Assembly (NCBI GenBank): GCA_033439295.1
Contig: JAVTLE010000014.1
Span: forward strand, 1,922,001-1,986,000
From: Deuterostichococcus epilithicus
Taxonomy: Eukaryota > Chlorophyta > Trebouxiophyceae > Prasiolales > Stichococcaceae
Direction: 5' to 3'
Length of the DNA: 64,000 nucleotides
The stretch's first letter is position 1, and the number at the start of each line of letters is the position of its first letter. The translations under genes were made by a program, and so were the position numbers. The notes under the pieces were generated by a model. The model did no database searches. It had not been told where the DNA came from and saw only the letters and a list, made by a program, of their open reading frames with translations. Of the stretch, positions 4,111 through 64,000 are shown in pieces.

Positions 4111-6242
4111 TCAGGTCGCTGCGGCCGCAGGCCCCGACGGCTGCTGCCGGCCCCCTTTGCCTGCTGCTGCTGCTGTGCTGCTGCGCTCCCGCTCGATCTG
4201 CAGGCTGAGGTCCAGGAAAGCGTCCCGGTTGACGTACGGGTAGTCGGCCAGCCAGAGGCTGGACTCGGGGAGGTACGCCTCCTTGAGCGCCTTGAACCCC
4301 TCGAAGCCCGGCTGGCCGGCCACCACCAGCACTTCCACCGGCTCTCCCACCCGGATCTCCTCGTACCTGGCATATTGCACCAGGGTTTTCATTCCAAAGG
4401 TCCGGTCCCTTCCGATGCACGGCTGACCAAGCTTGACGGCTTTGGAAGGGGTTGCATTGCCAAGGCAGCACATCACAAGGTCGGCCTGGCCCTCGCATTC
4501 ATGACAGCAGCACACGACGGCCATGATGTGATGCTGCTTTGCTTCTCACCGTGTGCTGAAGGGCACAGAGATCTCGGTGCGCGCGCCGCTGTCGTCGCCG
4601 GCGAGCAGGTGCAGGTACGGTTGGAAGGCCTGCCGCGGCGGCCGCTCGCCCTGGGTGGGCTCGCTGAAGCGCGGCATGCGTCGCCCCTGTACCTCCACCC
4701 GCAGCGCCGTCGTGCGCCACAGCCCGATGTACCTGCACGGCGCTGTCGCCCTTTGTTACGCAGCTGCTGAGGCAGCGCATTGTGCACCGCAGTGCTGTGG
4801 TCGCCGTTTCCATGACCAGGGGCCACAGACGCTTGGAGCATGCAGTGACACGCACCACCCATGAACGATCCCCCCTCGTCCCCCGAGCTAGTGCCGTCTG
4901 ATCTGCGGCGCAGTCAGCCAGGCTGCCAGCTTTCCTGAACGCCCTGCAACTCTGCATGCAGAGTGGATGAAATCGGCGGTGAGACGAGGCTCGCCTGTAC
5001 TGCGACAGCAGCGAGCGGTTTTTGTTAGCGGCCTGGACCCAGGGCCACCAGAAGGGGAAGGTGACGGCGCCAGCGGACAGCAGCGCGGCCTTTGATGATG
5101 CGAGCAGCGTGACCACCGCGGCGCCCGCCCACCGCTGCACCGCCTGTGCCGGGTCGCCTTTGAAGTACGCCACCTGCTCCGCAAACGGCGCGATGCGCAG
5201 CATTGCATCCTGCGGGCAATTCGCGGGTGTGTTTGCCGAGGTTCTCGGCAGGTCGTAGATCAGAAGAAGAATGAATGTGCATGGCTGTCTGTGGGTGTGG
5301 TCGCACAGTGGATGCTGGAGGTTGAAGATGAGGGGCTGGCAAGAAGGCTGAACATGCACTGGTCTGTGTAGCATGATGAGTGCACACAGCTCCGGACAGG
5401 CAGCGTGGCTGCGCCGGTGTTTACCCGCTCTTCAGGCGTCAGCGCAGTGATATCGGGGGCATCGCCGTCTGCATCGTCCCATCCATCCTCTGTGGGAGCC
5501 GCAGCGCCCTCAGCAGGCTGTGCGGCTGCGGCGCCGTCGGCCCGCGCGGCACCTGCGTCACTGGGCGTTGGCCGTCTGAAGCGTTCGCCCCAACCGCGGC
5601 CGGCGCCTGGTGCTGCCTGCTGCTGGAACTGCGAGCCGCGACCGCCGCCGCTGGCACTGCCCCAGTCGTCCCACCACTGTTCGTCCGCTGGGTTCCTGGC
5701 CCCATTTGCGGAGGCACTACGCAGGGCGGCAGCATTCTGGGCCGCTGCCGTCTGCTCCGCCGCTGCTCCGGCATCGAACGTGCTGCTGGGTTGCGCCGAG
5801 GTTGGCTGAGGTGGCTGTGCGCCATTTTGTAGCAATGCTGAGGCGCCACGCTGGACCTCCTCCTCTTCGTCCCCATTGTCCATGAGCGCCCGCATCCGCC
5901 GCGCCCTGCTGTCGTCTGCATACGTTGCGAACACGTGTTTTGGGCTTGGAAGAATCAGGTTCCGAAACGGGAGGGCACGTTGCGGTCCAAGCTGCAAGCT
6001 GCAGCTTGGTGCGGGCCGCTGATGCGTGTCGGAGCGTTTCGGAACGAGAACCAAATGATCTCGTGGCTGCCACCTGACACCGACTGAGCAGCGGAGTGAT
6101 CACGAGATGCACCTGAATCACTCCTGGCCGTGGCTGGTGCTGCTGTCGGTCGTAGCGGACGCCGCTGTTGCAGCGACTGCGGCCCAAGCCTTGGTGTCGC
6201 ACCTAGATGCGCAGCGTTTTGAAGCATAGCAGACAGTTCCAT
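4111..6242 (-). CDS. Predicted plastid-targeted membrane protein, conserved in the green lineage, function unknown
   Basis: Exons in gene order: 6242-6113, 5915-5425, 5209-4995, 4732-4550, 4366-4111; 424 aa with all phases closed. The first exon (from MELSAMLQNAAHLGATPRLG) is Arg/Ser/Ala-rich without acidic residues, like a chloroplast transit peptide. A disordered acidic/Gly-rich stretch follows (about 45-205). Next is a conserved-looking core with a hydrophobic segment ending FPFWWPWVQAA, then YIGLWRTTALRVEV, RYEEIRVGEPVEVLVV and YLPESSLWLADYPYVNR. I recall similar sequences in plants but know no function. The third intron most likely starts with GC at 4994 (GCGAGC); a GT at 4985-4984 is also in phase. 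It is divergent from SMC1 with 489 bp between starts. Confidence 0.7.
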
Positions 6243-6731
6243 ACCGAACAACTCGAGATTCAAGATCACTTGTTCGACATCGCTGGTCAACTTGTGGCAT
6301 GAATGATTTCTGGTTTCGAGGTATGCAAGGCAGCAGGAAGCAGAGGAAGTACCGTTGTGCTTTGTATGCTGTGCGGATCTTGTTGCTGGTGAGTGTGATG
6401 TTTCGCCTCGCATCGGTTGCATAACAGTGCGACGGCAACGCAAAGCAGCTGACGCTCTCGCTGGCCTCGTGCAGCGCTGTGACCAGCGTGCCCGTGCCTT
6501 TCGAATTTGAACGGATTAGGCGTTCTTCTCGCCTGAAATCTTGAGCACGGGACTTGCAGCTGACAAGCGAATACCGTATCGCCACTGAGCTGTTTCTGCG
6601 ACACCTAAGTTGTTCATCCGCGACGGCAGTCGCTAGCCGGGCTTTACGGACCGAGGCGCTGACAGCAACAGGCAGCGGCCTGCTGCGCTCCATGTCCGTG
6701 TGAAGCCGCCCGGCAGCCCGGTCCGGCCAGC
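6243..6731. promoter_or_regulatory. Divergent promoter region between the plastid protein gene and SMC1
   Basis: 489 bp separate the two ATGs, on opposite strands. It must hold both promoters and 5' UTRs. The minus-strand ORFs here have no support as exons, and no specific element is recognised. Confidence 0.5.
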
Positions 6732-9700
6732 ATGGTGGGCATTCGCCAGCAGGCGCCCGGCCGCATCGAGCGGATCGAGGTCGAGGACTTCAAGAGCTAC
6801 CGCGGGCGGCAGGTCATCGGGCCCTTTTCCAACTTCACCGCGGTCATCGGCCCCAATGGCTCCGGGAAGTCCAACCTCATGGACGCCATCAGCTTCGTGC
6901 TGGGCGTGCGCACAACGCACCTGCGCGGTTCCCTCAAGGAGCTGCTGTACAAGGGCGGCCGCGACGATGCCGCCGCGGCACCCACCCGCTGCATGGTCAA
7001 GCTCGTCTACGTGACAGGCGAGTGTGGCCCATCGGCGCTCTCCAACAGAACGCAGAAATGACGCTGACAGGGGAACTCATGACCCGGAGTGGCATTCATG
7101 GGTCCGTGAAGTCTTGGCTGGCCGTGTTGCCCAATGCCAACTGATGCCTGTGCATGTTTCTGGGAAAAAACTGGGCAACTGCAACTGAAGCTTGTCTCTG
7201 TTGTCACGGACCAGGCGACGGCGAGGAGCTGCACTTCACGCGCAGCATTGTGCCGTCCAGCTCGGCGGAGACCAGCTTCCAGAGCCAGTACAAGATCGAC
7301 AACCGGACGGTCACCTGGGACGCTTACAATGTCAAGCTGAAGTCATTCGGCATCCTGGTCAAGGCCCGAAACTTTCTGGTCTTCCAGGTGCGACACCGTG
7401 CTGACCGGATCTTTCGCTCCCCACGTCGCTCAGGACATGCGCCTCTCGCATGTCCGAGTCTTCGCCTGCTGCATGTGGGGCAACGCACGAAAGCAGCAGT
7501 CCCGTGCCAGTTCTGAGCAGCGCGACCCCATTTTCAGCGCGTCGCTGCCTGGCGCAGGGCGACATTGAGTCGGTGGCGGCGATGGACCCCAGGGGCCTGA
7601 CGGCGATGTTTGAGGCGGTGTCGGGGAGCGAGGGCCTGCGGCGGGAGTACGAGGAGGCGCAGGCGGCGATGACGCAGGCGGAGGAGCGCGCAGCGCTGCT
7701 ATCGGGCCGCCGCAAGCTGCTGAACCAGGAGAAGAAGCAGAAGAAGGAGCAGAAGCTGGAGGCGGAGACCCATGTGCAGCTGCAGGAGCAGCTGGTGCGT
7801 GTTGCGTGAGCCTCCTGCAAGTCGCCGCGGCGCAGCATTTGTCACATGCAGGGTGCACTGCCCTCGAGTCCAACCCCGGCAACGGCTTGCAGAAGCAGTC
7901 CGCCGGCAGCGGGGCCGGCGCTGCGGCCGAGACATCTGGGTGCCCACGAAGTCCGTCGCGCCTCGATAGAAGGCTGCGCAGCCATCTGTTTCCGGCTGCT
8001 GCTCCCCTGCAGGAGGACCTGAAGGTGGGGCACTACCTGTGGCAGCTGTACCACATCGACCAGGATGCAAAGGCCAAGCGCGCCGAGTGCTCGGGCGAGG
8101 TCGCCGATGCGGACCGCCTGGCGCAGGCGCACGCCGCTGCCGAGGCCAAGGTACAGCCCCTGTCGAAGGAGGAAATGGCCAGACGAGACCAACACGTGGC
8201 TGCAGACGCACACATCGATTTCTATTACACAATATGTCTCCCAGGGCGTGCCTGCATGTGTGCACCAGCGCTGGGGGGTGACCTTCGCAGCGCCTGCCAA
8301 CGTCTGCAGGTCAAGGCCAAGCGCGCAGAGCAGGCGGGCTTCGTCAAGGAGCGCATGCTGCTGGAGCGCAAGATAGCGAAGAAGAGGGCACAGGTCGACA
8401 AGAAGGTGCCGCCTTGCCGTGCTGTTGATGGCAACCACTACAATTATTGGCCGTTCTGCAGCAGCGTTTGAGCTGCGATGTCACAGCGAGTCAGTGTCTG
8501 GCAGTCACGCCTGGTTCGTCTGGGCATCATGTCTTCTGACAATGAATGCATAGGTTGTTCCTTGTTTACTCGGCGGTCAAGAGGCAGCCTAACGCGTCGT
8601 GGGTGCCCTGCTGCGGTGCAGAACCCGCAGAACGTGACGGTGAAGGAGGAGATCGCGCGGCTGGGCAAGCGGCTCAAGGTGGCGGAGCGGGAGCTAGATG
8701 AGAAACGAAAGGCGGCGATCGCGCGGGAGGAGAAGGTCGCTCGCCTGGAGGACGACCTGGAGAAGATCAAAGCGGGTGGGACGCTACAGGAAACCTTTGC
8801 ATTTCCGTTCACCTTGCGGAACTGCAGGACTGAACAAATTGGTCGGCTTGTCTGGACATTCCGTGGGAGGGGAGGGGGCCGGAGGGTGAGGGAGACACAT
8901 GCAGCTCCTTCGCCTGTGCGCCTCAGGCCAGGCATGCTGCCCCGCCGCCGCAAGTACAATGCCGAGCACGATCCTCGGCCGCGGTCTGCAGGCGGATGAG
9001 GCAGATGGCGGCCTGTGGACAAGATTAGGTTCTGTTGTCACATTGGCTGAAATCTGCGCCTGCCGCCCCTGCAATTCGCAGCGCAGGAGCAACTGGAGGA
9101 GGACCTGGCAGCAGAGGAAGCAGATGGCAGCCTGACGCTGGACCAGGGGCGGCTGAACCGCTACTCCGCGCTCAAGGAGGAGGCCGGCGCCCGCACCTGC
9201 AAGCTCGCGCAGGACCGCGACACGTCGACCGCGCGGCTGCAGGCGCGTGCCGGCCGCCCCGCACCCTTGCTCCAAGCTTCCTCGCTCGCTCGATCGATCG
9301 CCTCTGTTGCGCGTGAGCCGCGTACCGAGGCTGGCGCGAGGCTCCCGCCTTCCCGGGGGGCCAGTGCCGGCACAAGGCATGAGGGCGCAGTCAGTGTGCG
9401 CATGTGGGCATGAAGTCCAGGGCGCAGGCAGTTGACGGCACCCAGTGTTCACGAATGCCCGTGGCCTCGCAGGCGGACCAGGAGGCGCTGCGCACGGTGG
9501 AGGACACCATTGCCTCCATCACCAGCCGCCTGGAGCAGCTTGGTGCGCCAGCTTCCATGGACCGCCCTCCGTCTGCGCTCCCGCAGTGCCGCCCAGTTTA
9601 TGTTTTGACAGAACTGCCCATTCGAGGAGTGCGCTGCACCCAGCGCCAGCTGCCATGTACAGACTCATGCACCACCGGGACGGGCCGCGCGTGCAGAGGC

Positions 9701-12700
9701 GGCCAAGGCAGAGGCGCTGCATCACGAGGAGGAGCTGAAGGCGAAGGCCGAGGACGTCAAGGGCACCCTGGAGCAGCGCAGGGCCGAGCGCAAGGAGGCC
9801 GCCGCCAAGAACCGCCAGGCTGGGTGCGCGCACCCCTCCTCTTGCGGCAGCTCCTTCCAACCTCGGTTCGCCTCGTGGATTACAGGTCTCACGTGCACTA
9901 AAGGCTGGCTCGACACGTAGCTGCTCCTTGGCTGGCAACCACTGCCGCGGCGGGTGATTTTCCGCTCCATGTCTGGGCACGATAGGGCGCAGCGGGAGTT
10001 CCTGGCGAGCAAGCTGGAGGAGGTGGAGGGGCGGCTGAAGGAGGCCAAGGCGGACCGGCGGGAGAGCGAGCGCGACCGCAAGATGCGCGACGCGCTCGTC
10101 AAGATGAAGGAGCTGTTCCCAGGCGCGCTCCCGCGCAGCTGCAAAGGCAGCACATGCGACACCTGAACCGAGCAGACTTCAGGCAGCCTGATGCGACCTC
10201 TCGGCGCTCGCACCAACAGCGTCCGCTGTGTCGGCCCCGAGCTTGGCACACTCGAAGCTGGTGTGTCTCGGCAGCGCCTGACCCCCGCTGGGCGCCCCGC
10301 TGCAGGCGTGCACGGGCGCGTGACGGAGCTGGCGAGCGCGACGAGCGGCAAGTACAACATCGCGCTTGCGGTGCTGCTGGGCCGCGACATGGATTCTGTG
10401 ATCGTGGACTCGGAGGCCATCGCCAAGGACTGCATCAAGTTCCTGAAGGACACGCATGTGCCGCCCATGACCTTCTACCCGCTGCCCACCATCAGGGTGC
10501 GCACTCTGAACTGCGGGCGCAGCAGGCGCTTTGTGAGAACATGCAGACCCCGAGAAAGCTGCAGAAAGTCGCTGGAGCAATGTTCCGACACCGGCATGAG
10601 AACAGCCGTCCGCTCTCAGGCGCTGCTGGTTCGAAGAAGACGCTGCCGGCAGCGCACTTGCAGTTGCGGACAGCGTCTCGTGGGATGGTGACACAACAAC
10701 TGCTTACTTGCAGGCCAAGCCGGTGAACGAGCGGCTGCGGCAGATCGGAGGCACCGCCAAGTTGGTGCTGGACGTCCTGAGCTACGATGCCGCCTACGAG
10801 CGCGCCTTCCTGAGCATCTGCGGGCGCGCCTCTTGTGCTGCTCGAATCAACCTCAAGCTGCAGTCCTCTTCCGACCTGTGACTGACAACCCGTCATCCTG
10901 CGCGGCCTGCTTGAACTGATCCAAGCATGGGCGCGGCGTCACTTCTCGTCTCGCATCCGTGCCTGTTGCGCGCCGCATGCCCTGCTGAGCTTGCCGAGGT
11001 CTGGTGACGCCCTGCCACGCGCCGTGCGCCGCAGGAACACGCTGGTGTGCGACACCCAGGAGGAGGCCAAGCGGCTGGCGTTCGGCACGGAGCGGCACAA
11101 GGTGGTCACCCTGGACGGCACGCTCATCAACCGCGCGGGCGTCATGACCGGGGGACTGTCCCGCAACCTGGAGTCGCGCGCCCAGCGCTGGGACGAGAAG
11201 GTCACCGGCAGCCTTAAGGAGGTGACAACATCCGCCGCCCGCCTGCCGCATCACCGCTGCTGCCGCTTGACCCATCTCTCCCATCCCCTGCTGGTGCCGT
11301 TGCAGCCTCCGCAGCTGCCGCCGCCGCTGCCGATCATCCTTCTGCCGCCCACCATGCTGCTGATGACGACCAGCAGCTGGCTGGCTGCTGCCACTGCACG
11401 GCCTGCAGTTGGCAGCTGGTGACCTTGACGCAGCTCTCGGCGCATTCGCTGCGCCTGCCTCTGCAATGTCCATCGTCAGCATGGCGCCAATGGGCTCCGG
11501 GCATGTGCGGCCCTGCAGCTTGTTGTCCATTGGGCTCCCTGCCGCTGGTCGCAGCTGAAGACCGCATCAGTCAAACACTCAGAAGCAGGCACGGATGGCG
11601 GGCCGAGCCGTCATCCCAAGCCGCAGGCCCCACACTGCCCCAGCCTCGCTCACCCTGCCTGACACCTTGCGTCCCTGCCGCAAACCGAGCGTACCAAGTA
11701 TGTGCGGGCGAGGGCCCCTCAAGTTCAGCGACACCCTGGCCCCAACAAATCCCGCCCTCCAAAGCCCCGGCCCCTGCTGCACAGGAGCGCGCCAAGTATG
11801 TGCGGGAGCTGGGCGACCTGCCACCGGAGCGCGAGGCGAGTCAGGCGGAGCAGCGCCTGGGCGGCGACATCGCGGGCCTGGAGCGGCAGGTGGACTACCT
11901 GGCCTCGGACCTGGTCGCCACGCGCGAGCGCGCTGCCAGGCTGGACGCCGAGGCTGCCGCTCTGCGCAAGGTGTGCGCTGCCACGGGTCTGGGTGTTCTG
12001 CCTGGCAGCTGCTGGCCCCAGACCCCCAGTGCTGGACAGGCCGGCTGCCAGGCATGCTGCCGGAGGTCGAGCTCACTGGGGCAGCTCTGACTGCAGCTGC
12101 GCCCGGATCGGCCGCGGCGGGCTTGTGCTTGCCTGCACCGATCCGGCGACTCTGTCAGACCACGCTGGTCCACGGCACGACCGTCCGAGAACGCACTGGA
12201 TGCAGGAGCGGGAGAAGCAGGCGCCGGGCGCTGAGAAGCTGCGCAAGACTGTGGCGGATCGCACCGCACGCATCGCCACGCTGCAGCAGCGCATCAACGA
12301 GGTCAAGGACCGCATCTTTGCGCCCTTCAGCCAGCAGGTCGGCGTCGCCAACATCCGCGAGTACGAGACGCACTACCTGCAGGCCGCTGAGCAGGCGGCG
12401 CTGCAGCGCAACAAGCTCAAGATGCAGGCGCGCGCTCCCGTGCATGCTGCGCCGCAACCCGGCTTTATGGTCGCGCGTCTCCTGGGAAAGCCGCTCATCT
12501 CGGGCCGCTGGCTGCGTGCACAGCTTGAAACATTGTGCAGCCCAGCCGGCCGGCCGGCCGGCCGTGTCACTTCACGCATGCACAGCTTCTGGACTTTGTG
12601 CACAGCACATACAAACGGTGACGGAACGGCAGTGGTCCCTCGTCCCAGTGGCGCTGATGATCTGGGAGGCACCGTACAGGCGGCCAAGAGCACCAGCCAG

Positions 12701-15700
12701 GCAGCATATGAGCAGCGCTGATTTCGTCAAGGTTTCGAACATTGCTGTGGATGTGTAGAGATGAGCTGGCGACACTTGTGCAGGCGGCCAAGATCACCAG
12801 CCAGCTGGCGTATGAGCAGCGCGCAGACGCCAAGGAGCCTGTCAAGGCGCTGCAGGCGGAGATCGAGGCCGCCAAGAAGCGCCTCGAGAAGTTGCGCGAG
12901 GTGCGCCGCACAGCGTCAGCGTCGATGTGGTTGGGGGTCCCGGCCGCTGCGAGTTCTGTCGGGGATCCATGGCAGGCAGTGCTTCTGTTGTGCACTGCCA
13001 TAAGATAATCACCCCCGCGGGGATCAACCCATTTCTACTGCCGCATTGCCGCCCGGGGCCTCTGCCCGCTCCACCCCTCACGCTGCCAGGCCGCTGCAGC
13101 CGGAGGGCGCACACCCTGGAGGTTTCTGAGGGGAAAAAATCCTGTCGCAGGACGAGGGGGCGCTTGCGGCGGCGGCGGCGACCGTGGAGGGCGAGCTGGC
13201 GGAGCAGCTCACGGAGGTGGCGGCGCTCAACGCCAACGCCGAGCAGGCCGAGAAGGAGGCTTCCGAGCTGCGCAGGGCGGCCGCCCGTCACCAGAAAGAC
13301 CGTGAGTGCTTCGTTTGCCCGTCTTCTGGCAGCTGCATGAAGTTCACCTCGACCAGTAGGTCCAGAGGCTATGAAAATGTCCTGGCTGCTGCACGGTCAG
13401 CTGTTGGCGCAGGAGCAGATTGGAAGCACGTCATGCGCTCCGCCTTGCTGGCTCGTGCCCGTCCCCTGTGAGCTTCGTGTCACGAGACAACATTGCCAAG
13501 GGACGGCGTCTGACATGCACGCAGTCGCGAGTGCAAAGCGGGCGCTGGGGTCGCACCAGGCTGCGCTGGACCAGCTGCAGACGCGCCGCGTCGACGCCCT
13601 CAAGGCCGCCGCCATGGACCAGGTGTGCCGCGGTCGCCTGCCACCGAAACTGCTGCTGCGGTCGGCTGCCGTCTCCTGTCCTGCTGCAGAGGACGGTCCC
13701 CGCGCTGTAGTGGATCACCACCTGCATCAAGCAAGCATCCTGCATTCGAACAGGTGGCCTGCCAGGGCAGGGCATCAGTTCCTGACCCGCCCTGCTCGTC
13801 GAACGCCCAGGTGGAGCTGCCCAAGCGGGACGGCGGTGGCGCGCAGCCGATGGACACGGACGATGGCGCGGGCACGGACCCCGGCGCAGGCGACGATGAC
13901 GCCGTCGCCGCACTGGACTACAGGTGACAATCGAGCTGCAACGCGTCCGCTTCCCCTCAGTCCGCCCCTTGAGCGCATGCCTCGTTGGAGCAGGCTCCGC
14001 AGCCCCTGTGCAGTCCTGCGGTCGCTGCAGTGGTCACGTCGTGAGCGGTTGCTGAGCGACGTTCCCGACCCGTGCAGCGCCCTGAGCCGCGCGCAGAAGG
14101 CGGCGCGCAGCGCGGCAGAGCGCGACAAGGTCGACGCTGAGTTCCGCGCCGGCATCGAGGAGCTGGCCGCCTCGTTGGAACGCACTGCGCCCAACCTGAA
14201 GGTCAGAGTCCGCACGAGGTCGCATGGCGCCTGTTGGTCCCTCTCGTCTGGAACCCCGCTGCAGTGCAGCAGGCGCTGTGTTTAGGACAGCAGCAGACAC
14301 TCGGGCTCCCTGGTTGCAAGGCCCGGTAGGACATTGCCCTTCTGCGCCGCTCGCTGTGCCGCTCACGCACCACCAGGCACATGCATCGCTGCTGGCGCCT
14401 GTCGCCTGGTCCATGCCCGCCTCCAGCCCTCCTCGAAGCGGCGCGCTGGCAGCACCAGGCGAACACGCTGCGCGCGATGGCTCAGGCGGTGGAGCAGTAC
14501 CAGGCGCTGCCCAGGTTGTCGCCGTGCCGCCCGAGCGGCGCCAGGCGAGTGCATCGCCCTTCCGCAGCCGACAAACTGAGGTCAGAGGGATTGCTCCGCA
14601 GGCGGTGGAGCAGTACGAGGCGTTGCGCAGCAGGGAGGCGGAGCAGGCAGCGGAGGTGGAGGAGGCTCGGTCCACGTCGAAAGCCGCCATCGGCACCTTC
14701 AACGACGTCTCGCGCCGCCGCTTCGACCTGTTCATGGCTGCCTTCGACCACGTGGCCGCCGAGATCGACCCCATCTTCAAGGTCTGCCCCTCGCACATGT
14801 TGGGCCGCATGTGGCCACCTGCTCGGTCCTTGTCACGCGCACAGTGGCGTGTGCCTGTGCTTTCGATATCTGACCTTCGCGCGTCGCGCGAGCCTGCCCT
14901 TGCTGGCTGCGGCGCCGTTTGGAACAGGCGCCTGCTCAGCATGGCACACTGCCGCTGCTGTGCCTCCGGCTTGCACCTGCTGTCTGCCAAGCTTCCGGGG
15001 ACCGCTTGACCCACCACCGCTGCTGCGCGCCGCAGGAGCTGACCAAGAGCAGGTTACACCCTGTTGGCGGGCAGGCGTATCTGAGCCTGGAGGACAGCGA
15101 GCAGCCCTTCGGCTCCGGCATCAAGTTCACGGCGATGCCGCCGACCAAGCGCTACCGGGAGATGGACCAGCTGTCTGGCGGCGAGAAGACCGTCGCCGCG
15201 CTGGCGCTGCTGTTTGCCATCCACAGGTGCGCCCGACGTCGCTGGAGCGGGGCACTGCGAGCATCTCCGTGGTTGTCTGCAAACTGCCTTAGTGCACCTG
15301 GGCTTGCCTCGAGGCAGATGCGGTGGACGATCAGTGCGTGAGGCGGGGCCAGGAGGGGGGGAGGAGAGGGCGCAACTCTGCGTGTGTCAATGCAGCTCCA
15401 GTGCAGCTGCAGTGCGCGCCGCGCCCGCATGCTTCTCCTGAGCAAGACCTAGGACGGACAACCCTGTGTGCGCGCATGTGCAGCTTCCAACCGTCGCCGT
15501 TCTTTGTGCTGGACGAGATCGACGCGGCGCTGGACGCTGTGAACGTGTCGCGCATCGCCAATTATATCCGGGAGCGCACCCGTGACGGCGCCCCCGGCGG
15601 CTTCCAGTCCATCGTCATCTCTCTGAAGGTAGGCCGAGCATCCCCTAGCTGCAGTTTGCAGCCCTTCCGGCCAGTCGCCTGATTCGGATCACCATTCAAT

Positions 15701-19480: not shown

Positions 19481-19515
<35 letters not shown>

Positions 19516-21093: not shown

Positions 21094-21185
<92 letters not shown>

Positions 21186-25020: not shown

Positions 25021-26410
25021 TCATTCGTCACCGCCAGGCAACCTGCTCAGCAAAACCATCAGCAGGACTCCTGCCGCTGCGCCCGCGAGGTGCGCCACAT
25101 GTGAGATGCCGCTGGCGCCAATCATCGCACCCCGCCCGATGAGCGCTGACTGGTTGGCAAACTCCTGCTGGACCTGAGTAAACACAAACTGCCCCAGGAT
25201 TCCCGCCTGCAGCGGGATGCAAGACACTGCCGTCAAGCGCGCAGTTGGCATCGAGGGACAGCAGCAGTATCAGCAGCAGCAGCAGGGTCTGGCATTGCGT
25301 GGCTAGACTGCCCGCTCGTTTCCAGGGCAGAGAACGTGCCTCGATGAGCTTCTTCAGGCTGAGTCCCGAGGAAAGCTTCAGAAGCACGCTGACAGCGTAG
25401 AGTCCGAAAACGGCGCCTGATGCCCCTAAAGACAGGGACGCCTTCGGCAGCACCGCCAGCGAGGCCACGCTGGCGCCTGCCAGCATCTCGCACGCACACG
25501 CGTACATTGAACCTTTAGCTGCTGAAGCTGTGCATCGACGGGCAGTCATATATCGTATGTTTGGTGTCTAGGCCGCTGCAATGCAAGCTCGCTCAGGAAC
25601 ATGTGCGCACCCAAAGCAGTGACTAGGTAGGTCAAGGTGACGCCGAGCGGTCCTCCATCTGACTCCACCTCACGCCCGAAGACGTAAAGGCCGAACTGCA
25701 CAGGCAGTCGTACTAGGTCAACGCCCGATCCAACAGGGGGTACAACGAACCTACAGCAAACGATTCAGAACAGCCGCACCAGGTTGGAGCTGAGGTGCTG
25801 CCAGCTGCCGTGGCAGAAGGCGCTGGTGATGAGCTGCCACCAGCGCGGAGCTGAGTGGTTGAGGTACAAAAGTTGCACCCAGCCTTGCTTCAGCAGGTGG
25901 TCGAAGCCGAAGATTAAGAGGTTTCCCATGATCAAAACGAACAGTGCATTGCCGTTCTGGTTCGCTTTCCGCAGCCGCGCCTGCTGTGCGCTGTCTGCAT
26001 AACCACATCAAGCATCTCTGGGCGACGTGTGAAACCGCGCGAGAAATTGCAGCTGCACCGTCTGCGCGCTGTCTAAATTGACTCAGCGCTTACCAAGTGC
26101 TATGCGTGGCGTACAATGACTCGTCATTCTGCTTGCAGCATACTCCATGCGCCACCAGACGCCCAGCCGATGCTGCCGCCGCACCTTGCAGGCGCTCCGG
26201 AGAGTACTTCCTAGAGAGGTCATCACTGCCCAGTGCAGATGTGCAGACAAAACTCCTTTTGCGTCTAGGTAAATTTGTTTGAGGCCTCGCTGCTGGCGCT
26301 GGCAACGATTTGCTGGATGTTTGCCTGCCGCTGGTGCGCAATGACTGCACAGCTCTACGTGTGTGTTGGTGGCATGGCACGAAGCACGTTAATTGCAGCA
26401 GCGACGCCAT
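25021..26410 (-). CDS. Rhomboid-family intramembrane serine protease, probably plastidic
   Basis: Exons in gene order: 26410-26185, 25994-25780, 25695-25593, 25476-25340, 25206-25021; 288 aa with all phases closed. The N-terminal ~60 aa (MASLLQLTCFVPCHQHTRR...) resemble a chloroplast transit peptide. The rhomboid core reads WWQLITSAFCHGSWQHLSSN, YVFGREVES, SLGASGAVFGLY with the catalytic Ser in GASG, and SHVAHLAGAAAGVL with the catalytic His, over about six membrane segments. It resembles plant plastid RBL proteins. Rhomboids cut transmembrane substrates within the bilayer; the substrate is unknown. Two introns start with GC: 25592 (GCGAGC) and 25339 (GCACGT); GT alternatives nearby break the frame. 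An upstream in-frame Met at 26443 is an alternative start. Confidence 0.88.
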
Positions 26411-31156: not shown

Positions 31157-31859
31157 ATGGCAATGTTGCAAGGTGCATTTCGCAGAGCTACGGCCTCAGC
31201 GTTGCGCCAATCGGCAGCGTGCAGCTCATCGGCATTTTCAGTCCGGCTCGAAAGCACAGACGCAATCGTGCAGAGGGCGAAGCAGAACGAGGGCAACGTC
31301 ATTACCGAGCAAGGAGCTGCATTCCCAGGCGACCTGCGGTCGACCAGCGGCCTAGGCATAGGCGACGGCATCGAGAATCACACAGAAAAATGGCTGGAGG
31401 TACCTGCAATGTGACCTGAGCCGCACAACTGCAGCGCATTGCAGCGTCGGCATTTGCACCCTCATAAGCTGCTGATGTCATGAGGTTTGTTGAACGGAGG
31501 TGTTCTTCTCGCGACAGGGTTCTGACAAAACTCCTATGGAGTACATCCACTCGCACGAGCCCATGAAAGTGCACGGCTTGACGGTGGCGTCGTACGGATG
31601 TGAGTCGCGGCGCAGTCAAGTCGCGGCAGGAGACTGCTGCATGCACCCTGTCTTGCTGCATTGTCTTCTCAGCGAGGTGTCGCTCGTGACAGAACAATTT
31701 CTCCACGTCGCAGCTGACGACCCGGCGCTGGGCGCCCCTGTTGAGTATATCGACCTTCGAGGCACAACCAGGGAGAAGCCTGCCACCTGCAAGTACACTG
31801 GCAACAAGTACTACTCCGAGGCGAGTGGAACTGCCCATCATCTCCGTTCTGCGGCATGA
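31157..31859 (+). CDS. Mitochondrial complex I 13-kDa subunit NDUFS6-like, zinc site degenerate
   Basis: Exons: 31157-31399, 31518-31599, 31714-31859; about 156 aa. The N-terminus MAMLQGAFRRATASALRQSA is Arg/Ala/Ser-rich and lacks acids, like a mitochondrial presequence. HTEKWLEGSDKTPMEYIH, PMKVHGLTVASYG and DDPALGAPVEYIDLRG follow the NDUFS6 pattern. In NDUFS6 the zinc ligands are a Cys in the VACDG-type segment, the His of ALGHP, and both Cys of CKYCG. Here the segments read VASYG, ALGAP and CKYTG, so only one Cys remains. The C-terminus is uncertain: a possible GC donor (GAG then GCGAGT at 31826) could splice to an unseen last exon; otherwise the chain ends EASGTAHHLRSAA. Confidence 0.72.
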
Positions 31860-39600: not shown

Positions 39601-41305
39601 GGCAGCATCGGCGATGGCATGGTCCTCACCAGCTGTGCAAAAGCGCCGCAGGCGCCTGCATGCTTTGTGCTCGGTGACACAAAGGAGATGTGTTCGCTGT
39701 GCGAGCAAGGAAGCTTGGTCGTTGTGCGGGCAGGTGCTGCTGACGAGCTCGGGGCGTGTGCGCATCGGGTCGCTGGGCGCAGCGGACGCGCTCGGCTCGC
39801 CGCCCGGCAGCAGGGAGGAGCTGCAGCAGCAGCAGCGCGACGACCTCGCGGTCAGTGGACACTAATTACTGACGACCTGCTCTTGGGCGCCCTGCGCCGT
39901 AGTAACCCCAGCTGTGTCGCGCTGCCGCTGCCTGCATTCCAATTATGGCTTGCCTGGACCTCACGTCCGGTGGTCCTGACACTTCTGATTGTGACTGGCT
40001 GCCAGGCGCTGGGGCAGCTGCTGCTGACGCTGACGTGCACCGGGTCGGGGCTGCGGCCGAGCCTGGAGAACTGCATGGCGCACTACTCCATGGACCTCAC
40101 CCGCATCATCACCGCCCTGCTCGCCTCCCCCGAAGGTGGGTGGCAATCGCGCTTGAACGGCTGTGACCTGGGCTGCGGCCGCCCCCAAGCACCGCAACAG
40201 CTCCATCCTATGCCAGGCAGCAATAAAAGCCCTCGTTACAGCCTGAACCTGCCATAGCATCTCAGGGTGGCGCCCCCCAAAAACGGCAGCGGTCCACTCT
40301 GCCGTCTTTTTATTGAGTGTGGCTGCCAGTGAGGAGTGCAACCCTCAAAGGGAGCTCGCCATGTCGCGTGCCCCGGCAGGCGGCGGCCTGGGCAGCTGGC
40401 GCGGCCTGGCGGCGGCGCTGGGCGAGCGCCTGTTCATGGGGCTGGACGCGAGCCAGCTGTACGCGGACGCACTCATGGGCGAGCTGGGTGCGGAGGTGGA
40501 GAACGGGCGCCTGCTGCGCCTGGTGTGCCGCCTGTCTGCCATCACGGAGCGCCCCGAGCACGAGGGCGACCCCCAGTGGTCCGAGACCGGTGCGGTTGCC
40601 GCTCTGTTCCGCGAGCCCGACTTGTGCAACCTGACGACGCACCACAGGCGGCCTCACGGGTCCGGGGCACCCTCCACAAGGCGATTCTCGATCTGCGGCT
40701 GGTCGCAGCTGGAAGCGGACTGGTGCGCGGTCTGCCATTCAGCCTTGACCGACATCACGCCTGCCAGGAAGCACCCTCTGTTTGCCACTCACCGCGCTTC
40801 CTGCATCCCGACGCGCAGGCGACAGGTACCTGCTGAAGCTGTTCCGGGACTTCGTGTTCCACCAGATGGACGAGGAGGGGCGCCCCATCCTGGACTGGGG
40901 CCACACCATCGAGGCCCTCAACAAGCTGGACGCCGGCGTCCCCGAACAGGCGCGTACAGATGTCACATCACAGCAAACAGCTGTGCTTGCTTCACCTGAC
41001 GCAGGCGAGCTTTGGCAGCAGACGCATACCTGATGTCCTCTCACCATCATCATGGCTCTGCTGCTCGTGCACGGCTGCAGTAGGGTGTGCTCCTGCCTCG
41101 TGCACTATACCCTCCTGCATTCCACCGCGGTATCCCCCAGCATTCCCAATGGCGAGAGGATCTGGCCCATGCTGTCTGCGGCGCGCAGGTGCTGCTGCTG
41201 AGCCGGGACGAGATGTCCATGCTGGTGGTGTCCTACGCCGACATTGCGCGCTGCCTCAAGGCGGCGTACGGCGAGCTGCAGGCTCGCAGCGGTGCCCCCC
41301 GCTGA
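36676..41305 (+). CDS. PAN3: PAN3, regulatory subunit of the PAN2-PAN3 poly(A) nuclease
   Basis: Exons: 36676-36877, 37031-37162, 37252-37347, 37468-37597, 37741-37895, 38088-38230, 38439-38603, 38968-39132, 39332-39505, 39734-39850, 40006-40135, 40380-40589, 40819-40949, 41189-41305; 688 aa with all phases closed. The N-terminus has four A-x-x-F-V-P PAM2-like motifs (Phe 27, 43, 65, 102) that should bind poly(A)-binding protein, then an RGG/Gly-rich segment. The pseudokinase domain includes IQHFHSIYPLEPAA, LIVLRSAFVSSE, ADLVCHRTCLHPSK (no catalytic HRD) and VLLTSSGRVRIGSLG. The C-terminal coiled and knob domains read EVENGRLLRLVCRLSAITER, DRYLLKLFRDFVFHQMDEEG, LNKLDAGVPEQ and RDEMSMLVVSYADIARC, which dock PAN2. 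Introns 1 (36878) and 13 (40950) start with GC. Intron 3 is 120 nt and open in frame. Confidence 0.93.
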
Positions 41306-42674: not shown

Positions 42675-45496
42675 ATGTCGGACTCGGACGACAACGTCGA
42701 CAAGCTCTTCGAATCATCAGAAGAGGAGGATGCAGGACCTCAGCAACGTTCGCAAGATCCTCCAACAGCAGCAGAGCCCGACCAGGCCAGGGAGTCTGAT
42801 GGCGACGACGCGGATGCAGGCCCATCGAATCAGGCAGCCACACCAGCTTCGAACGCCAACAGGTCAGAGTTCTCCTTTGTCGACGCGAACCTGCCTGACA
42901 CTGTGCCTGCTGGATTGACATACACTCTTCATGTAGTTTATGTTTTTGAGTGTTTAAGAGGTGATTGCAACGTCGTCTGCAGGCGCATCGCGGACGAGGA
43001 GGAGGATGCAGAGGATTACGCCGAGCCAGAGCGCAACACAGCCTTGGAAGACGGGCCTCCAGAAGTTGAGCCTGGTCCGCCGCTGCACCTAGAGGGGCCC
43101 ATAGTTACGGGGCCCGACTCCAGCAGGATTCGCCTCGTGCGGGTGAGGCCCATTGCAGTTGAGTGTGAGACCAGCGAATCTACATTGCATCCCAGTCGCA
43201 GGTGTCTGTCCTGGATCTGCGGCTGTAACACGGTATTGTTGCCTCATCGTGAATGGTTTGTGTGCCTCTGCAACCCTGCAGGCGTCCAACATCCTGGGGG
43301 TGCAGTCAAAGCCGTTTTCGCCAGACACGCACGAGCTTGAGCAAGAGGAATACGAGGACACGGTGCGTCTGTTGCGCAGAATTATCCCATACAGCAAGCA
43401 TGCACCAGCACGAGACCATGTACATATTGTTAGGTGCCATGATGCCATCATGCAAGATGGATGCCCTGAATCAGCGAGTTCCTGATTGAGGAGGCGTGTG
43501 CAGCATCTGAGCCCCATGTCGAGCTGCTGGCACGGCAGGCAACGGGGCAGATCAAGGTACGGCTGGCCAATGCGATCCGCTGGCGGAACGTGCAGCAGCC
43601 CGACGGCAGCACGACGCGTGAGAGCAACGCACGATTTGTGCGCTGGTCGGATGGCAGCCTCCAGGTGATGATCAAGAGGCTCTTGCGAAGCCGCACGCTG
43701 TGTATCTTCAATGCAGTGCTCTGCATGGGCAAACTCCCTCTGGGCGCTTTTCCTTCATGCATCTCTTGCCTACAGCATAAAGGACGCCAGGCTTGCTGGG
43801 CCACTGAGCAGCCGCAGGACCCAAGCGTGTGCACACGACTGTGCAGACAGTCGCAGAACCGGGTCTGGCGCTGCCGTGCAGCTGCTGGTGGGGGACGAGG
43901 TTCTGGACGTGGCGGAGACGGACGTGAGTGGCGACCACCACTTCATGTACGTCCGCCACCGCGGCTTCATCCATGTGAGACCCTCGGAAGGCGGTCCCCT
44001 TCTGTTGACCCGGCAACCCAGCGCGCAAGGTTCCGAGCCACACCTTGGCCTCGGCAATGGGGCCGTCGGCAGCCATGCCTACCCGGTTCGAACACTGCGA
44101 ACAGTGCCTGTGTGTTCCCTCTTCCCTGACAGCCGCCGCTGCTGGTGTCGCCCCCGCAGGCACAAGCGCAGCTGGCCACCCGCATGGCCTTCCGGCCGTC
44201 CAGCATCAAGAGCCGGGCGCACCGGCGGCTGACGGCGGTCATGGACAAGCGGCACGGCCTCAAGGGCGTGCGCGTGCAGGCGACCACCACCGTCATGGAC
44301 CCCACCCGCGAGAAGGCAGAGCGCGCGCGCGCCGAGGAGGCCCGCATCCGAGACAGGTGTGACCATAGTCCGACCTGCGAATACGACGATGTTGCACTGT
44401 GTCTTGGGGCTCCCTGTTCTGTGCGCGGCTCCTGGCCATTTGACTGTGTGCAGATCTGATGCGTTGGGTGTTGTCAGGGCGCCTGCTTTAGGGAAAGTAC
44501 TGCACGCGCGGGCGCTCCTGGCAGACAACGCTGGAAGTGGCCGCGTGGGGTGCGCCACAACTGTGCCGTCGAGACGCTCAAACGCTCAACCCAAAGCCCA
44601 CACTCCTGCGCACCTTGACGGTGGCAGGGAGGGGCTGGCGAAGCGGCAGGAGAAGGAGATGCGCAAATACACGCGGACGCCCATGTCGCGCGGCGGCGGC
44701 GGGGGCGGGCTGTCGGCGGCGTACCTGGAGGCGGCGGACGAGGAGGGGGAAGAGGACGAGGACTACGAGGAAGAGCCGGGGGTGTCGGCCAGCGAGCTCG
44801 CGCGTCGCGACCTGTCCCGCCCCCGCCCAGACGCCCGCGCCGAGGTGCCTGCCTGCCTGCCTGCCGGTCAGCTAGCCGGTTGCTGCCTGCTTCGTCAACG
44901 GCGTGGCGGCTGGCCGGCTGGGCATGCCGGGGCGCCTGCCGAGCACCGCGGCGCAGCACGTCAGACACGTTGAGCAAGCCGGAGGCGGGGGCCCTTGTGA
45001 AGCTGCTGCGGGAGTCGAACGGACTTGCACCAGCGGCTCAGTCGTTGGGGGTGTCGGTCGCATGCAGGCAGAGGCGGAGAGGCGGCTGGCAAGCGCCAAG
45101 CGCGGCGCCCCGCCCGGCTCCGGGCAGGTCGCAAAGCGCCAGCGCGCGGCGTACGACCTTGACGAGGTGATGAGGCGTCTCGGTCGACCTGCAAATCCTA
45201 TCGTCGTGATCGTCCTGGTGCCTTCCTGCACATTGTGAGCGGGCGTCCAGCCGGCCTGTCCTCCTCTTCCAGCGGCACACGCTGCCAGCAGCTCAGCCCA
45301 GCCCGCTTCTGCAGACTGACCGTGTACATGGCGGAGCTTTCGGATCTGCAATTGCTGAACCCTGCAGGACGAGGAGGGCGAGATGCAAGACTTCATCGTG
45401 GACGAGGACGAGGACGAGGAGGAGGAGGCAGTGGGAGCGGCGCGCAAGCCCGCCGCCCGCCGCCGCATGGCGCTCAGCGACGAGGACGACGACTGA
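42675..45496 (+). CDS. LEO1: LEO1, subunit of the PAF1 transcription elongation complex
   Basis: Exons: 42675-42862, 42983-43142, 43282-43362, 43479-43664, 43882-43974, 44160-44356, 44628-44844, 45068-45166, 45368-45496; 449 aa with phases closed. An acidic N-terminus (DSDDNVDKLFESSEEEDAG) precedes the LEO1 core: NILGVQSKPFSPDTHE, VRLANAIRWRNVQQPDGSTT, ARFVRWSDGSLQ, LLVGDEVLDVAETDV and FMYVRHRGFIHAQAQL, then MAFRPSSIKSRAHRRLT. A KRQEKEMRKYTRTPM segment and an acidic EGEEDEDYEEE/MALSDEDDD tail follow. PAF1C travels with RNA polymerase II and supports H2B ubiquitination and H3 methylation. Exon 4 starts after a GAG acceptor, the least certain junction. TGTAA at 45795. Confidence 0.92.
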
Positions 45497-58600: not shown

Positions 58601-60640
58601 GTNCACNNCTCGCAGCCTGNNACTNTTCCCTCGTATCTTACATGCAGCCTGCCTCATTTCCCTTGTGTACTTCGTGTCTGCCGATTGTGGTGACAAACGG
58701 CCCCATCCGCTGCGCCGTCTTGTGAGCTGCCACAGGCTTCGCTGCTGGCTTGCTGGCGTTCATTGGAAGCGAAGCGATACAGCGGCCAAGGACCCCCCTG
58801 CAGACGCTCGACCTGCACGGTCCGCCGCTGTGTGCTCACACCCTGTCGAAATGGTGTGCCCCCGCAGGCGACGGTGCAGGCGGCACTGGGCTCCCTGCCG
58901 GCGGACGCCATTGCCCGCGCGTACCCCACGGGCTCGCCCAACCACGAGACGTACACGCAGTGGGGCCAGGACGCGTTGACGGTGGCGGTGTTTGAGATCA
59001 TCATCTCCGGCACACTCGGGTCCCTGCTGGTCCGGTGGCTGTCGCCGTTCCTGCTCAGCCAGGTGCGCCAGCTGCAAAGTCTATCTGCAACCACCAGCTC
59101 GACTCCGAGGACGACGCTGTTCCCAGGAACACACATTCCAACCGCTGGTCGCGGCAACGCGGAGCGCCTGACATCGCTCTGTGCCAGCGCAACCGTGTNT
59201 GTGATGTNTGGGGGTCGNCGCCACTGGCGGCCGCGGCGTCTGGCGTATTGAACGGGCTTTCGCCAGCATGCCCGCTTGATGCCGTCCCCCTACTGGCCCT
59301 GCAGTCGCCGGAGGAGGACGTGACGATGAAGCGCGTCAAGAGCGCCGGCCTCGTCAACCGGTGCGCTGACGCGACCTGCCTCGCGAACTGGTCGTTGGCC
59401 TGCTCCCGGCATGCATCGGACATGAATTCCCGCAGTTTGCCCACTGCGGGCGCGCCTCCGCCTCGAGGCTCCTCCGCTCAGCGGTCAGGTCCCGGCCAGT
59501 CGCCCTCTTGCGAAGCCCGACCCCGCCCGCCGCGGCGCAGGATGGACTCCANAGACGGCGGCGCCAGCCTGGGCGGCGACGGCCACGACGCGGGCGGCAA
59601 TCTCGTGGCGGACCACGTGGAGCGGCTGGAGCAGCTGGCGGCGGCGCTGATCGAGACGGGGGACAGGGACGAGGCGGAGGAGGCCCGCCTATACGGCCAG
59701 CGCCTGCGCGCCGGCGTGCGCGCCCTCACCTCGGTGCGGCGGCTTCTCGTTGGCCCGAAAGGCTCGCAACGAAAGAAGTCGTTGGTTGGGAGGCCCTGCC
59801 TCGGCGTCGGCGGGGAAGGAGGGGGGGTAGGGGGTGGGGGGGGAGGGGGGCGTTGCTGGCGTGGCGGCCTCGCCTGGCGCCGCCCGCGGCGCTGGGCTGG
59901 CTGTGGGCAGTCGCTGAGGGGCGGCGTCGCCGCGCAGGCGGGCGCCCCGCTCTCGAGTCATGCGCCCATGGCCGGAGTCCAGCCTCTGCTGGGTGCCTGC
60001 TGCTGCGCCTGCCCTGGCCTGGCCTCCCCTCAATGCTGCTCGGGACATGTGACGCAGACACCTGCCATGAGACAAATGCATGCATTCACCTACGCTCTTA
60101 ATATAATCACGCACTTTCCTGCCTGCCCACCCGCAGCGGCTGCGGTACGAGATCGACCCGAAGGACGTCATTGGCGCGGACGCATACCGGGAGGCAGTAC
60201 GTGAGCTCAAGCGCCGGCGGCGCGCCCAGGCGGCGCTCACCAGCGCCTCCGGCCGCACCCTCGCCACCATCGAGGTGCGCCTCGCCCCTCTCAAAGACCC
60301 TTATAATAACGCGCTGAACAGCCGCAAATGGCGGCGGGGCGGCGCCTTGTCAGGGTGGACCTAGGATCTGAGAGGCCTGCTTGCCTATGCACTGCTCGTG
60401 CAGTCGCTGCTTGCCGTGCGCAGCTTTTGACCAGGTTCCCGCTTGCGCATACTCAACCTGTTCCCCAGCACAACTCGCTGTCTGTCACCGGCTTGGCACA
60501 GGCGCAATGTGCAAGCTGTCCGTGTCTGCGTGCAGGCTTCCAGTGGCTTGCCGCCAGGCAGGAGGTTCCAGACGACGCGCGACATCAATGACAGCGAGGG
60601 CTCTATCGAAATTGTGGAGCACGTCGCACGGACAGCCTGA
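55637..60640 (+). CDS. CPA2/NHA-type cation/proton antiporter with C-terminal extension
   Basis: Exons: 55637-55718, 56054-56149, 56331-56440, 56563-56727, 56860-57070, 57191-57248, 57363-57541, 57737-57864, 58106-58268, 58503-58600, 58868-59062, 59305-59360, 59541-59733, 60137-60274, 60536-60640; 658 aa with phases closed. The first two exons are the least certain (GAG acceptor at 56053). The membrane domain resembles SLC9B/NHA: WAILIVWLGGHIGAFLAEL, LNIPAPVGMICTGLFLRNVS, LAMIFLRSGLELDLRVFKQ, LTVVAAASFDDMVAITGY with the transport-site Asp pair, and ATVQAALGSLP to LGSLLVRWLSP. Such proteins exchange Na+ (or K+/Li+) for H+ in organellar or plasma membranes. About 165 C-terminal residues are hydrophilic and helical (HVERLEQLAAALIETGDRDE; EAVRELKRRRRAQAAL). 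Ambiguous bases cluster at 58603-58625, 59199-59219 and 59552. Confidence 0.88.
59813..59851 (+). repeat. G-quadruplex-prone poly-G tract in an antiporter intron
   Basis: Five or more runs of 3-8 G separated by 1-2 nt on the sense strand, within the intron 59734-60136. This fits a strong G4 motif in the pre-mRNA and in the + strand. Confidence 0.85.
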
Positions 60641-61392: not shown

Positions 61393-64000
61393 TCAAAACT
61401 GCACGGCGACCTCGCGGGTCAGCTTCTCGCCCTCGTAAAGATGCACGCGCAGGCCGTGGGTGGCGGCGTCAAAAGTAAACTCCGCCTCGCCGCCGTCGAC
61501 CGTCACCCGGTGCGGCTCCTGGCCCGCGTACATCAGAAAGCTGCCGTTGCCCTTGACCTGCGATCACAGAGTGCGACTCCTGTGCTCAGCCTCGCGTGAG
61601 CCATGTGACACAGCTGGCTCTGGCACTTGTGTGTGTGCAACGTTGCTTCTCGACTGTCGGACAGCTGCAACCGTCGGCAATGCTCACAGATCTCGTCGGA
61701 AATGGAGCTGCAATGCAGCAATCCACCCAGCGAACAGACCCAGTGGACAGCATGACCACATGGCTTACGCAGACACAACGCGCCTGCACCGTCGCGGAGG
61801 GGCCGGCACCGGCGCCGGCGCCGTTGCCGCTGGAGCCGCCGGCGCCGTGCAGCTGCAAGTCCAGCACCGCGCCGCCCGCATTCATCATGTTGGTCAGGCC
61901 CACCGCCGCAAAGTCCACATCGCCCGCCCGGTGCACCGCCGCCATCGTCACGATGGTGCTGCGCCCGGCTGCACGCACCGTGGAATGCAATGCTCAAGCC
62001 CGAGCGCAATGCCACCAGATGAGCTACAGGGCTGCAGGGCCTGGCGACAGCCCTGGTGGGCAGCGGTTGTGCAGTGAGAAAACTACACCAGAGCAGACTA
62101 CACCAGAAACGAGGGCAGTGGGTCGCCGAATCTCAGGGGAGAAGACGGATAAGGAGGGCCCCACCCTCCAGCCAAACAGGCAGCGAGTCGTCCGCTGTGA
62201 GCGTGGACATGCGCTTGGCTGCATCGTCGTACACCGCCCACCTGCAGGAAAGCGGCGGACGAGACATTCGTCAGAATGTGGCATGCCGTGCAGTCAACGC
62301 TGGCCGCTTGAGAGCACTCGTCGCCGCCGCCTCCAGCTGTCCGCTGGAAGCTGAACTGACTCGTGGATGTCAGCCTGCTCGTGAATCAACAGGAGGCAAT
62401 GTCGCACACCCCATCAAGGTCACTATTGGTTTTTGACATTTCGAGTGTCTTTGCTGAGGTCCTGATGAGGCACGAACTTACAGGAGCCGTCTCGAACGAG
62501 ACAGGGAATCACATTCGCTGTCACGCCTGCGGCGGGCTCCTCAAGGGGAGGGACAGGCAAGTGCTGCCTCTGCTAGGGCACTCTGGCATTACATATGCAT
62601 CCATCAGCAAAGGTGAAAAAGAAGGGCGAATGTCGCACCGGCCGGCGGGGGCGCCGGCGGGCAGCAGCGGCTCGCAGTCGGCGACGCGCACGACGGTGGT
62701 CAGCGGCGGCGGCGTGGCGTCGTGCACCAGGAACTGGCGCTTGCGTCGGCTCCAGGCGGCGCCCTGCAGGTGGAACACCCCCACCAGCCCGCTGTGCCGG
62801 TTCGAGTTCCACACCTGCGTGCGACGAGCGCCGCGGGGCAGCGTGAGGGTCCGAGCCTGTTCGTCATCTGCCTCACAGAGCCTTGCTTGACGAGCAAGGA
62901 GCTGCAGCAGCGCATCAGCAACTTTTACTGCTGCCCTCGGGAAGCAGCGGCCCCTGCTCGACAGGCAAGCTCGACAGGCAAAGGTGTCGCGCCGACAGTG
63001 CACTGTGGGGCGGGGCAGCCTGCTGCGAGAAAAGGGGAGCCGCGGGTCCTGGACGCGGGGCGTGCCTTGAGCAGGGACCTGTTGTCGCGCAGGACGTCGC
63101 TGAAGAGCGAGTCACGGGTGGGCCGCCCCGGCAGCTGCGCCCGCAGGATGGTGCCGTCCGGCAGGACCAGCCGCTTCAGCACCTGCAAAGCAGTGCATCA
63201 GACGTCAGTGTCAGCAGCTCGAGGCATGGGTGGTATTCAGCTGTGGGGGCGGTGTCATTCCACAGGCTGCAAAGTGCGGAAAGGAGGCAGCAGCGCTCGG
63301 CAAAGCGAGGAGGAAGGCAGGGGGCACACACGTCAAAGTCGTGCTGGCCCGGGAAGTCGGAGACGTAGATGCTGCCGCCGCTGAGCACGCGCGCGGACGC
63401 GTGCAGCTCTGACGCCGGGTGCTTGCTGCGGGGGGAAGGGGCCAATGATCAGTGCATTGTGGGAAGCTGCAGGAGCGCAAAGAGCAGGCACCTGGGTGAT
63501 CTGCAGCGTCCAAGGCATTCGTCAGCTGCACAAGTCGGGAGGAAGGCAGCGTCTGCATCTGCGCCTCAGCGCGACAACAGCTCAGCTCCACAGCAACCTT
63601 GGCTCAACGTGGAACGCCTCGGCCTGGGGATGCGAAAGCTGCCGCCTACGCCTTGCACACCAGGACCGCTCGAGAGGTGCCAGCAACTGCCCCGCCAAGA
63701 TATGCGCACCTGTGGAACATGTCCCAGTCGGGCTGCACAAGCGGCGACAGGAAGAAGCTGAGGAAGGCGCAGGCGGAGACGTGCGGCGTGCTGCTGGCCG
63801 GGTCCCGCGGGTAGAAGTCGTCCGAGGCGCGCGCCACCGCCGTGTCTGTCCACCTGCACGGTTTTGACAGGGTTCAGCACAGGCAGCGAGAGCCGCCACC
63901 CGTCGCGCCTGCTCTACGGCATCGTGAGGCCTGTCTTCACAAAAAGCGCATGCTACCAGGTGGCGCGGCGAGTGTAACGCCTAGAAATTCATCGCCCCAA
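61393..64000 (-). CDS. Raffinose synthase / GH36 alpha-galactosidase family enzyme (5' part outside window)
   Basis: Visible exons in gene order: 63853-63710, 63425-63332, 63182-63066, 62814-62639, 62241-62165, 61968-61784, 61557-61393; phases closed, TGA at 61395-61393. 63854-64000 reads as intron. Segments match plant raffinose synthase/seed-imbibition proteins: [95 protein letters not shown] and [20 protein letters not shown], then beta-domain pieces [18 protein letters not shown] and [26 protein letters not shown] holds the Asp expected as acid/base; the nucleophile (KVD-type motif) lies upstream of the window. The enzymes move or hydrolyse alpha-galactosyl units. A Gly/Ala-rich insert ([14 protein letters not shown]) follows LDLQLHG. 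Two introns start with GC: 63065 (GCACGC) and 61783 (GCGCGT). Confidence 0.92.

Follow-up and report, generated by a model that had tools for sequence, protein, structure and literature searches.

A raised share of predicted GC-AG introns in the green alga Deuterostichococcus epilithicus, alongside U1 copies that keep the residue facing donor position +2

Introns that begin with GC and end with AG average 1.2% over the surveyed plant species (PMC6310983). In Emiliania huxleyi, whose genome is 65% GC, GC is the commonest donor, accounting for 56% of a curated set and 61-65% of RNA-seq sets, and the authors regard base composition as the probable cause (PMC4028052). GC and GA donors together make up 25-74% in Symbiodiniaceae dinoflagellates (PMC11453091), the copepod Eurytemora uses GA and GG donors at about 12% (PMC5714493), and in the larvacean F. 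borealis the 5' end of U1 has been retained (PMC13326754). This work concerns GC-AG introns in a 64,000-nucleotide (nt) stretch of the trebouxiophycean green alga Deuterostichococcus epilithicus (assembly GCA_033439295.1, contig JAVTLE010000014.1, positions 1,922,001 to 1,986,000, forward strand; hereafter the window), in which a sequence-only reading had listed 15 GC donors.

The predicted share of GC-AG introns in the alga is estimated at about 6-10%, as judged from the model, filter and simulation figures given below. In comparison with the GC-AG introns of plants, the donor change and the AG acceptor are the same, whereas the share is several times higher. The alga resembles E. huxleyi in its GC-rich genome, its many GC-AG introns and its unchanged AG acceptor, but E. 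huxleyi is a haptophyte and uses GC in the majority of its introns. With dinoflagellates it has in common a raised share of non-GT donors that includes GC; these, however, also use GA, while neither GA nor GG is raised in the alga. Tunicates and the copepod share with it a lineage-wide departure from GT, and the U1 5' end is kept in F. borealis as in the alga, whereas Eurytemora has GA and GG donors in place of the alga's GC alone. E. huxleyi and the dinoflagellates are thus the stronger cases, and raised GC-AG use is already known. No published report of a green alga with a high share of GC-AG introns was found in the green-algal literature, which was covered mostly through titles and abstract openings, with subscription papers largely outside that coverage; as far as this literature shows, a green alga at 6-10% is new among genomes known for raised GC-AG use.

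The explanation that we consider highly probable is that these are U2-type GC-AG introns, present at about 6-10% and handled by an ordinary spliceosome with a standard U1, which arise by T-to-C change at +2 favoured by base composition. Under this explanation, a U1 whose 5' end is standard would bind GC donors despite an A-C mismatch at +2, and somewhat stronger U1 pairing at the exon end, perhaps also at +3 and +4, would help that binding; T-to-C changes at +2, favoured by the GC-rich composition, would be tolerated in enough cases for such introns to accumulate. What is observed is that GC donors are in excess, that the excess is confined to C at +2, that the U1, U5 and U6 copies found carry unchanged motifs, and that the donor context compensates; actual splicing and a role for mutation or conversion bias are inferred.

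Introns were predicted with a two-strand gene hidden Markov model (HMM) with phase-aware introns, trained without labels by Viterbi re-estimation on the window (62.8% G+C) plus 200 kb of contig C18 (the sample), from a genome of 46.8 Mb in 21 contigs; starting weights at donor +2 were 0.7 for T and 0.1 each for A, C and G. The converged model contained 562 introns, with GT donors in 490, GC in 53, GG in 8, GA in 5, TT in 3, AT in 2 and CC in 1. Re-decoding with overlaps gave 573 introns, 54 of them with GC donors (window 18/133, sample 36/440); once two introns at sequence edges had been dropped, 571 remained, among which GC donors do not outnumber GT (54 against 499). At least one GC call is carried by 33 of the 76 predicted genes in window and sample. 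The window share (18/131 or 18/133, several of the calls being weak) agrees with the share near 10% that the sequence-only reading had put forward from about 14 of roughly 130 introns, and is not clearly above that of the sample (p = 0.09).

Since Viterbi training is self-reinforcing and strengthens its own calls, controls based on scores and on simulation were run. The best-path score was highest with GC at 9% (-338845.7, compared with -338914.0 at 1% and -339036.8 at 0.01%), which places 9% ahead of 1% by 68 log units. Relative to a baseline in which A, C and G at +2 were each set to 0.05% (-339027.1), raising a single base to 10% increased the score by 167 for C (-338859.9) and decreased it by 13 for A (-339040.5) and by 10 for G (-339036.8); the idea that +2 had also become permissive to A or G was accordingly rejected. 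In six simulated genomes with a true GC share of 1.2%, the numbers of GC calls were 12/625, 12/629, 8/645, 12/635, 16/573 and 16/664, and the excess seen in the alga over that share lies far outside them. Single replicates at true shares of 0.2% and 9.4% gave 7/617 and 54/616, respectively, with 43 of the latter 54 calls on a true donor.

A strict filter, which required flanking exons of 24 nt or more, an intron length of 50-700, G at +5 and an AG acceptor, left 39 GC donors among 419 introns, together with 4 GG, 2 GA and 2 TT. In the sequence, AG precedes GC about 1.8 times as often as it precedes GA or GG, and the six strict GA and GG calls, if all were errors, would on this ratio imply about five false GC calls; with 11 calls taken off the strict set as supposed errors, 28/419 remain, or 6.7%.

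Protein comparisons bear on individual junctions. Nine predicted GC junctions are locally ungapped in alignments with homologues in the PDB, three of them in SMC1, one in PAN3, two in SnRK2 (sample 143952 and 144714), one in DDX47 (154139) and two in NAXE (96511 and 97392); the genes checked in this way were picked for carrying GC calls and yield no rate. Among 18 hand-picked GC junctions, none has a GT-AG alternative of the same length within 15 nt, and the in-frame GT-AG alternatives present within 12 nt at eight of them each alter the length. Precise removal of the GC-AG introns from mature messenger RNA is predicted, and it is this conservation of protein sequence that bears on it.

As the sequence-only reading had described, the GC donors it listed are GT-like donors with T replaced by C at +2. 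The ratio of C to T at this position is 54:499 (0.108), against 1.43:1 in intron bodies, and T is therefore still strongly preferred. Outside +1 and +2, GC donors form more Watson-Crick pairs with U1 than GT donors do (4.13 versus 3.45; 53 versus 496 introns, p = 4e-5), although part of this compensation may reflect selection by the model, whose donor scores depend in part on context. Exons ending in CAG precede 29/54 GC donors and 142/499 GT donors (p = 3e-4), and C at -3 is commoner (p = 8e-4) and A at +6 rarer (0/54 versus 58/499, p = 0.004) at GC donors; A also tends to be commoner at -2, +3 and +4, which is suggestive, though non-significant (p = 0.05, 0.05 and 0.07). On these properties, the constraint at +2 is reduced, not lost, and partly compensated. 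The proposed relaxation of the U1 site at +2 thus holds in part, as a reduction and not as a loss, and the U1 residue concerned is unchanged in the copies found with a 5' end. Introns of the U12 type have an extended ATCCTT-like donor, to which no resemblance was seen among the 14 commonest GC-donor hexamers listed; the U11 and U12 small nuclear RNAs (snRNAs) were not searched for genome-wide. At the other end of the introns, acceptors show a strong G at -4, with GCAG in 380 of the 499 GT introns of window and sample.

U1 was found at 11 places in the genome, eight of them above the Rfam cut-off, in snRNA searches that score the best candidates only, such that further copies of U1, U5 and U6 are possible. 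The comparison of U1 5' ends that the sequence-only reading had suggested revealed no alteration of the residue facing +2: A7 is kept in all ten copies that have a 5' end, eight of which read ATACTTACCTG. A U1 with G at residue 7, which would match GC donors, was rejected on the same ten copies. ACAGAGA is present in both U6 copies found, and in all five U5 copies found the loop GCCUUUUAC and the motif GCCTTTTAC occur; we take these to be standard motifs. An element, AACCCATAAC, precedes U1, U5 and U6 genes by about 70 nt, at a near-constant distance, at 10 of the 18 snRNA loci scanned (L002-L008, L013, L016 and L019), and is probably the snRNA upstream sequence element of the alga.

Two U1 copies depart from the common 5' end. 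One (L008 1501-1662, contig C13) has ATGCTTACCTG at its 5' end, which could pair with C at +6, and contains ambiguous bases; the other (L010 1501-1662, contig C10) has ATACGTACCTG there, which could pair with C at +4. C is common at both positions in the donors of this genome. Together with the upstream element, which L010 retains in an altered form, these copies are what speaks for a splicing machinery that has changed to accept C at +2 positively, for example because the U1 snRNA has diverged or a U1 protein is altered. Such a change is nonetheless unlikely, as neither copy is altered at the residue that faces +2, L010 falls below the Rfam cut-off and has an Sm-site region that looks degraded by eye, and T is still strongly preferred at +2. 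The genome has matches to LUC7 at two loci, to U1C and to a METTL16-family gene. Given the unchanged U1 copies, the preference for T and the extra pairing, we therefore favour the view that a standard U1 tolerates GC donors, with a presumed pressure from base composition behind them. The window itself encodes a spliceosomal protein, RBM22/Slt11 (49672-52305, minus strand; Pfam STL11_N, RRM_1 and Torus).

In human, nematode and Arabidopsis, genes with alternative splicing are reported to be enriched in GC donors (PMC2490688), which raises the alternative that those of the alga are a regulated class, retained because they serve alternative splicing. This also appears improbable: GC and GT introns are alike in median length (183.5 versus 198 nt), acceptor and phase, a likeness that the model favours, and GC introns sit in unrelated housekeeping genes.

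Several results weigh against tolerance of GC donors by a standard spliceosome at the estimated share, and some of them lend themselves to a reading in which the majority of GC donors are gene-model errors, caused by missed exons, assembly indels or a nearby GT, and the true share is about 1% as in plants. Wrong calls do exist: a 3-nt exon at sample 11499 created a false GC donor in Nfs1, the donor listed at 25592 by the sequence-only reading is wrong, the HMM missed one exon of a DegP-like gene and failed to call the rhomboid gene of the window, and the strict filter rejects 15 of the 54 GC calls, including sample 11499 and window 14504. The missed DegP-like exon supplies TDAAINPGNSGG, a typical motif, behind the GC donor at sample 93915; on this protein evidence that donor probably stands, and the acceptor alone changes. 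Freedom of 10% at +2 draws 16 GA or 24 GG calls in spite of the loss in score, and uniform weights at +2 yield 466 GT, 61 GC, 20 GG and 19 GA donors among 569. GA and GG calls number 14/573 in the real data and 2-7 per simulated genome, and the real error rate must therefore exceed the simulated one; the greater frequency of AG followed by GC would in turn direct errors toward GC. At 23 loci outside the training set, GC makes up 7/77 calls (7/71 without overlap duplicates), of which only 2/7 follow an exon ending in AG, compared with 36/63 GT donors, and this set therefore adds little. As regards composition, the G+C content of intron bodies shows no difference between GC and GT introns (p = 0.52), a result that gives the composition argument no help, and neither does C/(C+T) of the bodies differ between them (p = 0.21). 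An origin of most GC donors in model errors is nevertheless very unlikely, in view of the 8-16 GC calls of the six 1.2% simulations as opposed to 53-54, the 68 units by which the score at 1% falls short, the rise in score with freedom for C and its fall for A or G, the nine junctions that are ungapped in solved homologues and lack a same-length GT alternative, and the 28/419 donors that remain after the subtraction of 11 supposed errors.

All 15 positions listed by the sequence-only reading do read GC on the relevant strand, and the HMM calls ten of them (7018, 9243, 10123, 10824, 27126, 40950, 61783, 63065, 4994 and 12428). Nine of the eleven sites that it had considered firm are supported, namely 7018, 9243, 10123, 10824, 25339, 27126, 40950, 61783 and 63065, with support that ranges from the HMM call at 27126 and weak homology at 9243 to Pfam and reading frame at 25339. 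The site at 25592 is wrong and gives way to a canonical donor, and that at 47168, in an amidase fragment for which no family was found in Pfam, leads to an acceptor that implies a 41-nt intron, unusual beside the 5th percentile of 84 nt among the 573 predicted introns. Of the sites regarded as likely, 4994 and 12428 are among the HMM calls; at 35006 the HMM prefers a GT at 35030, with no deciding homology, and at 36878 the predicted PAN3 gene has yet to begin, its start being further downstream.

Table 1. Predicted GC-AG introns of the window and a canonical donor that replaces a listed one; positions are those of the window.
Feature	Positions	Strand	Evidence
GC-AG intron, SMC1 (GCGAGT...ACCAG)	7018..7214	+	HMM; ungapped against SMC1A and S. 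pombe SMC1; same-length GT-AG absent within 15 nt
GC-AG intron, SMC1 (GCGCGT...CGCAG)	9243..9472	+	HMM; no gap, but weakly conserved coiled coil; in-frame GT-AG absent within 12 nt
GC-AG intron, SMC1 hinge (GCGCGC...TGCAG)	10123..10305	+	HMM; no gap against S. pombe SMC1, one residue more in human SMC1A exactly at the junction; in-frame GT-AG absent within 12 nt
GC-AG intron, SMC1 hinge (GCGCGC...CGCAG)	10824..11034	+	HMM; ungapped, conserved stretch; in-frame GT-AG absent within 12 nt
GC-AG intron, SMC1 coiled coil	12428..12783	+	HMM only, retained by strict filter; two in-frame GT-AG within 12 nt, both altering length
Weak GC-AG call, SMC1 (GCGCTG)	14504..14601	+	HMM only; rejected by strict filter at +5; homologue gapped here
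GC-AG intron, rhomboid, donor 25339	25207..25339	-	Pfam Rhomboid 86.1 bits over hand-joined exons; one in-frame GT-AG within 24 nt; gene missed by HMM
Canonical GTGCGC donor at 25610, in place of GC at 25592	25603..25610	-	In frame; Rhomboid score 86.1 bits (76.5 with the GC donor)
GC-AG intron, UFD1-UBX (GCACGG)	27126..27239	+	HMM only, retained by strict filter; junction upstream of Pfam UFD1 match
GC-AG intron, PAN3 (GCGCGT...CGCAG)	40950..41188	+	HMM; ungapped in the three PAN3 alignments shown; same-length GT-AG absent
GC-AG intron, raffinose synthase (GH36)	61558..61783	-	HMM; Pfam Raffinose_syn spans junction, 91 residues to 80 positions; four in-frame GT-AG within 12 nt, all altering length
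GC-AG intron, raffinose synthase (GH36)	62815..63065	-	HMM; 86 residues to 86 profile positions, segment 104.1 bits; in-frame GT-AG absent within 12 nt
GC-AG call, gene without Pfam match	4733..4994	-	HMM only, retained by strict filter
GC-AG call (GCGAGT)	31821..32009	+	HMM only, retained by strict filter
GC-AG call (GCCAGG)	42786..42982	+	HMM only, retained by strict filter
GC-AG call, Na/H exchanger gene (GCGGGC)	59938..60136	+	HMM only, retained by strict filter

The genes of the window include SMC1, PAN3, UFD1-UBX, RBM22/Slt11, a Na/H exchanger, a rhomboid, a raffinose synthase and others. The predicted product of a gene at 18306-24664 on the plus strand has about 1,430 residues, among which glutamine and alanine form very long runs, and a transfer RNA gene (64.1 bits) at 42223-42294 on the minus strand is the one hit that Rfam gives in the window when gathering scores are applied. 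Elsewhere in the genome there is a spliced gene for PsaD of photosystem I, whose matches are photosystem I chains; PDB entries such as 6igz, 6ijj and 6zzx are green-algal. A search for relatives gave none among viral contigs and, among genome contigs, nine prokaryote loci, which were left unused.

In practical terms, gene finders that assume about 1% of GC donors will mis-model many genes of this alga. The alga also offers a test within the green lineage of whether GC-rich genomes shift intron starts from GT to GC while the machinery is unchanged. A more tentative reading, which we regard as possible and somewhat doubtful, is that it represents a natural intermediate between GT-only and GC-dominated systems, reached through base-composition pressure alone with U1, U5 and U6 unmodified; if this were true, the drift of a spliceosome toward GC donors would come first, ahead of changes in its own parts.

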